Source: a virus. From it: DNA of 27,721 nt. Positions within the stretch are counted from its first letter, which is position 1. Each line of letters starts with the position of its first letter. Under the pieces are notes generated by a model, which was given only the letters and a program-made list of their open reading frames with translations, had not been told where the DNA came from and ran no database searches. This document shows, one piece after another, positions 12,222 to 15,747 of the stretch. The DNA is taken from positions 1 through 27,721 of IMG/VR virus record IMGVR_UViG_3300028228_000199; one strand, given 5' to 3'. The position numbers and the translations under genes were made by a program.

Positions 12222-12294
12222 TTATATTTGTATCATTAAGGAATTAGAAAAAGAGTTTTGTAGCGTTTCATAGCGCATCTGTTTTGTTTTTTAG

Positions 12295-12323
12295 CCCTTG
12301 GTTTCATCGCCAAGGGTTTTTTT
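12295..12323 (+). terminator. strong terminator closing the lysis block
   Basis: CCCTTGG (12295-12301) and CCAAGGG (12310-12316) form a perfect 7-bp stem, loop TTTCATCG, followed by seven T. It separates lysis from the early block. A perfect -7 hexamer-like TATATTTG (12223-12230) 65 bases upstream could start a roughly 90-base RNA ending here, but no -33 element is seen. Confidence 0.9.
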
Positions 12324-12334
12324 ATGTGAATAAC

Positions 12335-13432: not shown

Positions 13433-13834
13433 ATGAAAACAGAGAACGAACACATGAAGCCTGAGATGTACGCTGGACTTTTAAAAGAGGACAGAGACAG
13501 AGCGTTCAGGTCTTACCGAATGGGTATTAGCAGTTGCAATGTAGATAAGATTATTGACGTGGTAGCAGAACACTTCGATGTTAAGGTAGAGGATTTGTTA
13601 GGTGGTTGCAGGAAGAGAGAATTAGCAGACCCTAGACACATGGCTCAACACCTAGCAGCCAAACTCACAGATAGTAAGTTGAAATACATAGGGGATAAAT
13701 TTGTATCTGTTAAGAACAGTCACTGTAATATCATACACGCAAACAAGAAGTGTAATCAACTATACGTTTATGACCCTAGCTTTAGAGAACACATAGACGA
13801 ATTAGAGGACAAAATACTTGCAGCGTTGAAGTAA
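13433..13834 (+). CDS. DnaA domain IV-like DNA-binding protein
   Basis: 133 residues that carry the DnaA-box-binding domain (domain IV) without the AAA+ ATPase. Visible signatures are FDVKVEDLLGGCRKREL (about 48-64; D-L-L-G and R-K-R-E), DPRHMAQHLAAK (67-78, the ARHxAMYL equivalent) and HCNIIHANKK (97-106, the DHSTVLHA equivalent). In DnaA these form the helix-turn-helix that reads DnaA boxes. A stand-alone copy could mark the phage origin, recruit the phage helicase, or titrate host DnaA boxes. It lies 2 kb before the helicase gene. The short N-terminal region may be a partner-binding part. Confidence 0.78.
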   Translation: MKTENEHMKPEMYAGLLKEDRDRAFRSYRMGISSCNVDKIIDVVAEHFDVKVEDLLGGCRKRELADPRHMAQHLAAKLTDSKLKYIGDKFVSVKNSHCNIIHANKKCNQLYVYDPSFREHIDELEDKILAALK

Positions 13835-13906: not shown

Positions 13907-14192
13907 TAAATCAGACTTAGTAAAGTTTGGAAACTTCCTAATGGAAGAAGTGCAAAGCGGAGAGATGAATCTTCACGGTGATTTCAGAATAAAACCTTCA
14001 GATATTGATGACTGGTTAGTAGAAAAAGAGATTGACAGTATTAGGGCTTGGAAAAGTATTACTGTAGATGATATACCAGACCTAAAAAAGGAGGCTTTTC
14101 TATCTCTTAAACCTCATATTGACGCTCTTATTAGTGATTCTATTTACGGAACAGAAACGGAGAGAGCGTTAAAAGAGCAAGAAATAAATTGA
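13890..14192 (+). CDS. hypothetical protein
   Basis: 100 residues, acidic, mixed alpha/beta (DLVKFGNFLMEEVQSGEMNL, then FRIKPSDIDDWLVEKEID). The segment DIDDWLVEKEI is of the kind seen in small DNA-excision or regulator proteins, but no helix-turn-helix is clear. The start codon is enclosed in a possible hairpin with a micro leader frame. It is followed by the structured RNA element at 14205-14307. No family recognised. Confidence 0.6.
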   Translation: MVTTFNKSDLVKFGNFLMEEVQSGEMNLHGDFRIKPSDIDDWLVEKEIDSIRAWKSITVDDIPDLKKEAFLSLKPHIDALISDSIYGTETERALKEQEIN

Positions 14193-14204
14193 TTTGAATA
14201 TATT

Positions 14205-14215
14205 TTACGTATCTT
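14205..14215 (+). promoter_or_regulatory. shared 11-mer TTACGTATCTT, copy 1
   Basis: The same 11 bases occur at 25592-25602, both in gaps ahead of a gene block and both with TTTG 7-8 bases upstream. It contains TATCTT, a -7-like core, but the TTTG spacing is too short for the host promoter type. It may be a phage-specific promoter or regulator site. Confidence 0.35.
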
Positions 14216-14226
14216 AGCAACGCATT

Positions 14227-14307
14227 GTAGGAGGTGCGTAAAAGACTAAGGTCTTAGACCTAATAAAACCCTTGTAGAAAGCCTCCTACCTTTCCGCAGG
14301 GGTTTTT
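14227..14307 (+). ncRNA. structured RNA or attenuator with loop complementary to an upstream SD-like site
   Basis: A terminator-like hairpin is formed by AAAACCCTTG (14265-14274) with CAGGGGTTTT (14297-14306), ten pairs with one G-U. It continues after a two-base interruption into GAAAG (14277-14281) with CTTTC (14290-14294). The apical loop CCTCCTAC (14282-14289) is a perfect 8-base complement of GTAGGAGG (14227-14234). Between them AGGTC and GACCT (14249-14253, 14257-14261) form a small hairpin that competes with AGAC-GTCT. The U tract ends six bases before the ATG at 14313. This could be a pseudoknotted attenuator for the next gene or a small RNA ending there. Confidence 0.55.
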
Positions 14308-14312
14308 CATGT

Positions 14313-15026
14313 ATGGAATTTTGGAAGTTAAGTAAACAAGTCACGAAAATGAAGGACGTATCAGACGGAGCAAAGGTACTTCACGCGGTTATAACTAACC
14401 TATGTGGTAAAGAAGGGTATTGTTTTGCATCAAATTCAAAGCTGGGGGAAATGTGTGGAGTATCTGCACGTACAGTACAGCGAAGAATCAAAGAAATGGA
14501 TGGTGTATTAATTACTGTTAAGCACTTTATTCAAGCAGATGTACAGAAGAGAAATATTTTTTTAAAGACACTTGTCACGGGTGAAGAAAATGACACACGG
14601 GGTACACTTTCTGTCACACCCCCTACGTCAAATGGTGCTGTCACGGGTACAATATCTGTCACCCATAATAGAGAACCTATAATAGAAGACGTTAATAGAG
14701 TTCCTACACACATTCCTAAAGACTTAACAAGTAACACGACTACAAAGGTTCTAGGTGCGGGCGAATGGAGGTCTGGAATAGCGTTAGATGGTGAACACAA
14801 CTCATGGAGGTTCTTACATAGACAGGTTAAAGGAACACACTCACACGCAACGTTGCCAGACTTACAAAATAAGTGTACATTGTTCTCTGAATCAGAGAGC
14901 CAAGGCGAACCAAAGACATCCTTTGAATGGAACAAACACTTTGTTGCATGGTGTAAGTACCAGAAGTTCACCCAACCCAAAGAGAGTAGCCTACCAAGTG
15001 CAACTAAATCAGATTGGAACAGATGA
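14313..15026 (+). CDS. helix-turn-helix replication-type protein
   Basis: 237 residues. The N-terminal 75 form a winged helix-turn-helix: a helical stretch (DGAKVLHAVITNLCGKEG) followed by ASNSKLGEMCGVSARTVQRRIKEM, the recognition helix, and a wing (GVLITVKHF). A long Thr/Pro-rich disordered linker (about 90-150) leads to a C-terminal helical part ending EWNKHFVAWCKYQKFTQ. Phage replication initiators and loaders upstream of a DnaB-like helicase often have this layout, so it may help load the helicase at 15747. It starts just after a possible attenuator and its stop overlaps the methylase start (ATGA). Confidence 0.68.
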   Translation: MEFWKLSKQVTKMKDVSDGAKVLHAVITNLCGKEGYCFASNSKLGEMCGVSARTVQRRIKEMDGVLITVKHFIQADVQKRNIFLKTLVTGEENDTRGTLSVTPPTSNGAVTGTISVTHNREPIIEDVNRVPTHIPKDLTSNTTTKVLGAGEWRSGIALDGEHNSWRFLHRQVKGTHSHATLPDLQNKCTLFSESESQGEPKTSFEWNKHFVAWCKYQKFTQPKESSLPSATKSDWNR

Positions 15027-15747
15027 AAAATTGGAAAGGAAGAAGTAACATTGCCATTCACCAAATGGATTGCCTCGAAGCAATGAAAGGCATGGAGGAT
15101 AACGCTTTTGATTTGGCTATTGTAGACCCGCCTTATGGGATAGGTGAAAGCGGGAAAAGTAACTCAACTAGAGGCTCATCTGCGGGTTCTAATAAATTTA
15201 AAGGAACAAGAAACACTACTGGAGCTGGAATACCTAGCACTAAATTTTTACATAAAGAATGGGATAATAAACCTCCAGACATTAAGTACTTTACAGAACT
15301 TCAAAGGGTTTCTAAAAATCAAATAATTTGGGGGGCAAATCATTTTATTGAAAATATAGAAGGGGCAAATAGCTCCTGCTGGATTGTCTGGGATAAATTA
15401 AACGGCTCAACAGATTTTTGCAGATTGTGAACTTGCTTACAGCAGCTTTAAAACTGCGGTTTAGAAAGATTCAGTTAATGTGGAACGGAATGTTACAACA
15501 GGACATGAAGAACAAAGAAATAAGAATCCACCCCACCCAGAAGCCCGTCAAACTTTACGAATGGTTATTAATAAACTACGCAAAGGAGGGTGATAAGATA
15601 CTCGACACGCACTTAGGAAGTGGAAGCCATGCCCTTGCTTGTTGGAATTTAAACTTTGACCTTACAGCGTATGAGTTAGACCCCGACTATTTTGAGGCTA
15701 CAGCAAAGAGAATAGAGAAACACACCAGACAGATACAGATGTTCTAA
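15023..15747 (+). pseudogene. DNA adenine N6/N4 methyltransferase, frame broken twice
   Basis: The start MKNWKGRSNIAIHQMDCLEA at 15023 sits at an ATGA overlap. Motif IV DPPYGIG is at residues 35-41. After about residue 130 the frame fails. Skipping one T in T5 (15415-15419) restores FADCELAYSSFKTAV, and skipping one T in T3 (15460-15462) restores RKIQLMWNGMLQQDM. Then come the HPTQKP motif and motif I DTHLGSGS, to the stop at 15745-15747. Order IV then I indicates a beta-class enzyme of the N6/N4 type (PF01555). The rest is intact, so the lesions are recent or are sequence errors. If functional it would protect phage DNA from restriction. Confidence 0.8.

Follow-up and report, generated by a model that had tools for sequence, protein, structure and literature searches.

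Directly upstream of a gene for a helix-turn-helix (HTH) protein, a 27.7-kb virus record carries a terminator-like hairpin whose loop can pair with a site further 5′. What does this pairing do, and is it kept in other phages? We followed up the locus in the whole 27,721-nucleotide stretch (hereafter, the window) and in related phage sequences. The results suggest that the locus belongs to a kind of RNA switch, not named before, that acts on phage replication.

A kissing contact between two hairpin loops

The first-pass annotation of the window had placed the pairing correctly, in both coordinates and sequence: GTAGGAGG and CCTCCTAC are exact reverse complements, and CCTCCTAC makes up the entire 8-nt loop of the terminator hairpin, which we call H3. 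Absent from that annotation was a 5′ hairpin, H1. As GTAGGAGG is the loop of this hairpin, the predicted contact is a loop-loop (kissing) interaction. From 14210 to 14307, the element consists, in order, of a promoter-like −7 box, H1, a small hairpin (H2) and H3 (Table 1). H3 has the stable hairpin and U tract (14303-14307) of an intrinsic terminator, and the tract ends 5 nt before the ATG at 14313. Folding of 14193-14312 gave z = −5.2, and none of 200 shuffles was as stable; the core (14218-14308) gave z = −3.7 compared with shuffles. The minimum-free-energy fold contains a long hairpin that uses sequence 5′ of H1; we rejected this as the functional form, as it is unsupported in relatives and part of it precedes the point where transcription probably starts.

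The −7 element consensus of Bacteroidota promoters is TAnnTTTG (PMC7366714). The box in the window is a poorer match to this consensus than those of the other members of the family described below, which have an exact TAnnTTTG a few nucleotides 5′ of H1. The possible −33 TTG of the window has a counterpart in locus L082, in the arrangement TTG-N19-TATATTTG.

Table 1 Features of the element and its flanking genes in the window
Feature	Position	Strand	Sequence or similarity	Basis or remark
DnaA_C-domain gene	13433-13834			Upstream of the element
Possible −33 TTG	14189-14191	+	TTG	18 nt 5′ of the −7-like box; from sequence; weak in the window
−7-like promoter box	14210-14217	+	TATCTTAG (consensus TAnnTTTG)	Aligns with TATATTTG of L082 and L102
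H1, 5′ hairpin	14220-14239	+	ACGCA-TTGTAGGAGG-TGCGT	Fold; found in all members
Kissing strand 1, in the H1 loop	14227-14234	+	GTAGGAGG	Exact complement of 14282-14289; covaries
H2, spacer-like hairpin	14249-14261	+	AGGTC-TTA-GACCT	Fold
H3, intrinsic terminator hairpin with U tract	14265-14307	+		Fold
Kissing strand 2, the H3 loop	14282-14289	+	CCTCCTAC	Sequence; covariation
Downstream gene, HTH_36/replication-initiation-like protein	14313-15026	+	Pfam PF13730; PHROG 270/678, replication initiation

Homologues in phages of Bacteroidota

At least eight other phage sequences have a homologue of the element in the corresponding position. They include lake and marine contigs and the cultured phages FCL-2, V175 and FCOV-S2 of Flavobacterium, PD691P3 of Parabacteroides and P2559S of Croceibacter. 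One is a phage contig (IMGVR_UViG_3300005732_000010; G001, locus L082) with a terminase 78% identical to that of the window. Its element is again flanked by a DnaA_C-like gene on one side and the HTH operon on the other, and its kissing strands differ from those of the window by one matching base in each loop (GTAGGAG to GTCGGAG in H1 and CTCCTAC to CTCCGAC in H3). Scanning viral contigs with the H3-stem pattern alone identified two more: G021 (L102; GTCACGG/CCGTGAC), with the element directly 5′ of the HTH gene, and G020 (L100; GGGCAG/CTGCCC), with the element one small ORF ahead of HTH and ATPase-like genes. With a covariance model built without the kissing pairs (R2), we found the element of the F. 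columnare phage FCL-2 (CATCCAC/GTGGATG) in the gap before the HTH gene (E = 0.003, a rough value, as the covariance models are small). From FCL-2, BLAST led to the F. columnare phages V175 (GTAGAGAG/CTCTCTAC) and FCOV-S2. For G021, G020, FCL-2, V175 and FCOV-S2, loop complementarity was not a search criterion. The elements of PD691P3 (CTACCAC/GTGGTAG; reached by tblastn; PD691P6 and P4 carry nearly the same copy) and P2559S (GTGCAG/CTGCAC) were picked up with a descriptor that required a loop complement, which is therefore partly a selection effect in these two. The family is modest in size, and some of its members are only partly assembled contigs.

Several other searches returned little. Sequence homology searches of phage records with the HTH protein and with the element gave no matches, and the first pattern scans, besides L082 and one ambiguous locus (L087), gave chance or coding matches only. 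One scan of genome contigs had no match; among the matches listed for another were many ordinary terminators with an ACCCTTG/CAGGGG stem. When about 790 Bacteroidota genomes were searched for the HTH protein, one match was obtained, where the kissing element was not detected. The L087 locus contains a hairpin (828-870; GTTCTACA-TTGTAGGAGG-TGTAGAAC) whose 10-nt loop is identical to that of H1 in the window. It is followed on its 3′ side by a hairpin loop containing TCCTAC, has no U tract and is flanked by a tRNA array on one side and a holin-like gene on the other. Whether it is a coincidence or a distant relative is ambiguous.

The members share a common anatomy. Every one has a −7 box and a terminator of its own, with H1 loops of 6-10 nt and H3 loops of 6-11 nt; in V175 and FCOV-S2 the U tract is displaced by a few nucleotides. 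U·G wobbles in the H1 and H3 stems fit an RNA made from the plus strand. The outer stem of H3 is identical at 24-26 of 27 positions among the window, G001 and G021. The middle hairpin, which the first-pass annotation described as competing, is not a competitor of H3 and looks instead like a spacer: five of the eight distinct members have H2 (as TGGTT-AACG-AACCA in L082 and L102), whereas L100, V175 and P2559S have a longer unpaired linker in its place. The linker thus consists either of 11-13 unpaired nucleotides plus H2 or of about 18 nt without H2. By a crude estimate from rule-of-thumb Ångström figures, this length roughly spans a stacked H1-kiss-H3 rod, with FCL-2 somewhat short. No conserved unpaired sequence that might serve as a target-binding seed was common to all members.

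Loop pairing is kept while the letters change

To assess the complementarity, we compared the loops of the eight distinct phages, leaving out FCOV-S2, which is near-identical to V175. Cognate H1 and H3 loops have perfect complements of 6-8 nt, 56 in total, whereas non-cognate loops have complements of 1-6 nt, mostly 1-4. Only one of the 40,320 possible re-pairings, the true one, reached 56 (mean 24.75); the comparison was also made with seven members. A strict descriptor (−7 box, H1, terminator and a loop complement of at least 6 nt) had 11 matches when searched against 1.2 Mb of phage loci, compared with 0-5 (mean 2.2) after shuffling. Nine of the 11 were family loci, some of them one contig counted twice or loci of near-identical phages. 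On the re-pairing test and the shuffles, we rejected a chance complement.

From one phage to the next, the paired sequences bear no relation to each other. When the window, G001 and G021 were aligned, kissing pairs 3-6 had changed on both sides with Watson-Crick pairing kept. Between G001 and G021, the kissing strands are identical at 8 of 16 positions (50%) and the scaffold at 68 of 78 (87%; Fisher p = 0.002); the same comparison was not significant for the window against either of them. The kissing strands thus diverge in sequence but keep their pairing. Relatives thus contain the compensatory changes, in the stem and in the loop pairing, that the first-pass annotation had named as the check to make, and the pairing it proposed is real in the sense of being conserved by covariation. 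On these sequence comparisons, the architecture of the element, its loop-loop complementarity with compensatory change and its position are established.

No second complement of the kissing strand was found elsewhere in the available sequence of G021, G020, FCL-2, V175 or PD691P3, suggesting that the partner of each element is the element itself. In the sequences examined, which are full genomes for only some members, most kissing strands have no further occurrence. Loops that change rapidly yet remain self-matched suggest self-recognition.

The element heads a replication-initiator operon

In the window, the element is preceded by a 100-aa ORF as well as by the DnaA_C-domain gene, and a protein of PHROG 5482 with weak primase/helicase similarity is encoded farther downstream. 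Of eight contexts checked, seven have about 4-20 nt between the U tract and the next ATG, and all eight lack a TAnnTTTG between the terminator and the next ORF. Because the terminator abuts the next ORF with no space for a promoter, and none was found between them, transcripts of the operon would have to traverse H3 by read-through. Against the attenuator reading discussed below, a small ORF separates the element from the HTH gene in G001, G020, V175, FCOV-S2 and P2559S. In P2559S, the annotated TTG start of gp48 (L261:1714) falls within the RNA element, and an ATG 3′ of the terminator is the likelier start.

The element was absent before the replication gene in Riemerella phage PT33, several B. 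fragilis phages, Elizabethkingia phage TCUEAP2 and Parabacteroides phage PDS1. As many related phages lack it, the element is not essential to such operons. In phages of B. fragilis and B. ovatus (L255, L256, L257, L259, L260 and L265), a short hairpin resembling GGCGGGGTAATACCCGCC stands before the replication-initiator gene in place of the kissing element.

Three further features of the window were observed. A second promoter-hairpin-terminator unit (12223-12325, plus strand) comprises TATATTTG, a GTAGCG..CGC hairpin and a CCCTTGG/CCAAGGG terminator; its two loops are not complementary, it has homologues at L082:2586-2655 and near L102:12460-12540, and it is possibly another conserved phage small RNA. 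On the minus strand, a TATATTTG-hairpin-terminator unit runs from about 9982 down to 9905, with similar minus-strand units in L102 and L095. Finally, a DNA methyltransferase (15014-15747, plus strand) seems to be split into overlapping frames (15014-15430 and 15418-15747), which suggests a frameshift or an assembly error.

A candidate attenuator and its alternatives

The structure and location of the element are well supported; its function and the direction of regulation we infer from them. The first-pass annotation had listed an attenuator of the HTH gene among its suggestions, and this is also our best reading, in which we place roughly even confidence: a kissing-loop attenuator that works co-transcriptionally on the replication-initiator operon and in addition releases an RNA of ~90 nt. 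RNA polymerase would start just 5′ of H1, which would fold first, and the H3 loop strand would pair with the H1 loop as it emerges, so that the 5′ half of H3 would be held at a time when its 3′ half has yet to be made. H3 might then close as a kissing complex, leading to termination and release of the stable ~90-nt RNA, or it might be held open long enough for read-through, and the balance between closure and read-through would set the amount of replication initiator. On the simplest reading, the element would be a kinetic switch in which early loop pairing tunes the speed of H3 closure, and terminated molecules would accumulate as the ~90-nt RNA. In folds of the nascent RNA that stop where the H3 loop ends, with the 3′ arm not yet made, the two loop strands were predicted to lie in one long-range helix in seven of eight phages. 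With the 3′ arm present, H3 formed in every phage folded, and no alternative structure that fully destroys H3, such as a nested antiterminator, was found in the folds. As H3 wins once its 3′ arm is made, any regulation would have to be kinetic or protein-dependent.

More speculatively, released copies of this RNA, which bear the same two loops, could compete in trans with nascent RNA, providing sequence-specific feedback that senses copy number. Such feedback is attractive because the loops are self-matched, hypervariable and mostly without another complement in the sequences examined. A phage would in this way count its own genomes, set initiator synthesis without a protein repressor and ignore co-infecting relatives with other loops. 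We regard this extended scheme as unlikely, but if true it would define a new class of phage RNA switch, the self-complementary kissing-loop attenuator.

The element could instead be a free-standing phage small RNA, its position before the replication gene being incidental. The kiss would then give a compact, nuclease-resistant form that acts in trans on a host or phage protein or on other RNAs. A promoter box and terminator in every member, the strongly conserved outer stem of H3 in the window, G001 and G021, a linker geometry that roughly suits an intramolecular kiss and the other promoter-hairpin-terminator units in the same phages would all be expected of such an RNA. However, the element always heads the replication operon, mostly with its U tract close to the next ORF, and lacks an unpaired seed common to all members, so that we consider a free-standing role conceivable but doubtful. 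Alternatively, the loops may act between molecules, forming dimers, chains or rings as the loops of phi29 pRNA do, or serving as an identity tag for copy-number or superinfection control. Loops that are always self-matched but differ even between close relatives, as in the loop matrix, are consistent with this, as is the greater divergence of kissing strands than scaffold between G001 and G021. Yet the linkers have about the length that an intramolecular kiss needs, low concentrations favour a kiss of that kind, and the window has no phi29-type packaging ATPase, its TerL belonging to Terminase_3. Prophage immunity in particular has little support, as the associated gene is in few or no prophages. 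Overall, contact between molecules seems improbable.

The location of the element, with a DnaA_C-like gene before it and a replication initiator after it in the replication module of several phages, also raises the idea of an origin element or primer RNA rather than a gene regulator. This is very improbable: the U tract, the strand-specific wobble pairs and the covariation of the loops are features of an RNA terminator, and no iteron-like repeats were seen by eye. Hardly credible is the proposal of the first-pass annotation that the pairing mimics ribosome binding, with the GTAGGAGGTG motif and the CCTCCTAC loop imitating the Shine-Dalgarno (SD) and anti-SD sequences. The match holds in the window, but relatives have entirely different kissing sequences, most of them with neither SD nor anti-SD. 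Given that the paired sequences are unrelated between phages, the resemblance is peculiar to the window, and we rejected mimicry because the SD and anti-SD letters are not conserved.

Relation to known RNAs

As the first-pass annotation had supposed, no named family matches: Rfam 15 gave no match at gathering score for the window or for the eight loci with homologues, a permissive search of the element gave chance matches only, and the model of the c4 antisense RNA (RF01695), an RNA listed in PMC2864571, was matched by neither the window nor the homologue loci. The literature searched contained no description of the element, although the supplementary tables of structured-RNA surveys (for example, PMC8040213) may hold it as an unnamed entry. 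The element and its homologues form a family of structured RNAs that has no name and that occurs in phages of both Flavobacteriia and Bacteroidia; those of F. columnare are in culture and can be mutated. Plasmids are well known to use RNA to control the initiation of replication, whereas there are few descriptions of such control in tailed phages of Bacteroidota.

By working principle, the nearest known systems are transcription attenuators, the c4 and P4 CI RNAs of phages and the kissing RNAs of plasmid copy control, each of which differs from the element in defining features. More distantly, purine and guanidine-II riboswitches also have an intramolecular loop-loop contact in a cis-regulatory leader, but the element lacks a conserved ligand-binding core and its kissing bases are not conserved in sequence. 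The pRNA of phi29 has two complementary loops on one phage RNA that covary between phages, as here; the element, however, has a different fold, lies in the replication module and is not accompanied by a phi29-type packaging ATPase.

Attenuators and premature-termination leaders with intrinsic terminators resemble the element in having a promoter, a 5′ hairpin and a terminator directly before the regulated operon, and in the predicted shift in pairing as the 3′ arm emerges. They differ in that the contact here is a kiss with the terminator loop rather than a nested antiterminator that destroys the terminator, and no leader peptide or ligand domain was found in the element. The c4 RNA of P1 and P7 and the CI immunity RNA of P4 are, like the element, short same-strand phage RNAs with short complementary segments, through which they control the genes that lie downstream. 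In the element, the complement lies within the same RNA rather than in a downstream target, and complements outside it were mostly absent from the sequences examined; the hosts belong to another phylum, and there is little or no sign of prophages. In plasmid copy control (RNAI/RNAII of ColE1, CopA/CopT of R1, attenuation in pT181 and pIP501, and RNAII of pMV158), kissing hairpins likewise adjoin the replication initiator, and loop sequence can serve as a specificity tag while the stems are kept. The plasmid RNAs are antisense pairs transcribed from opposite strands, whereas the element carries both of its loops on a single transcript.
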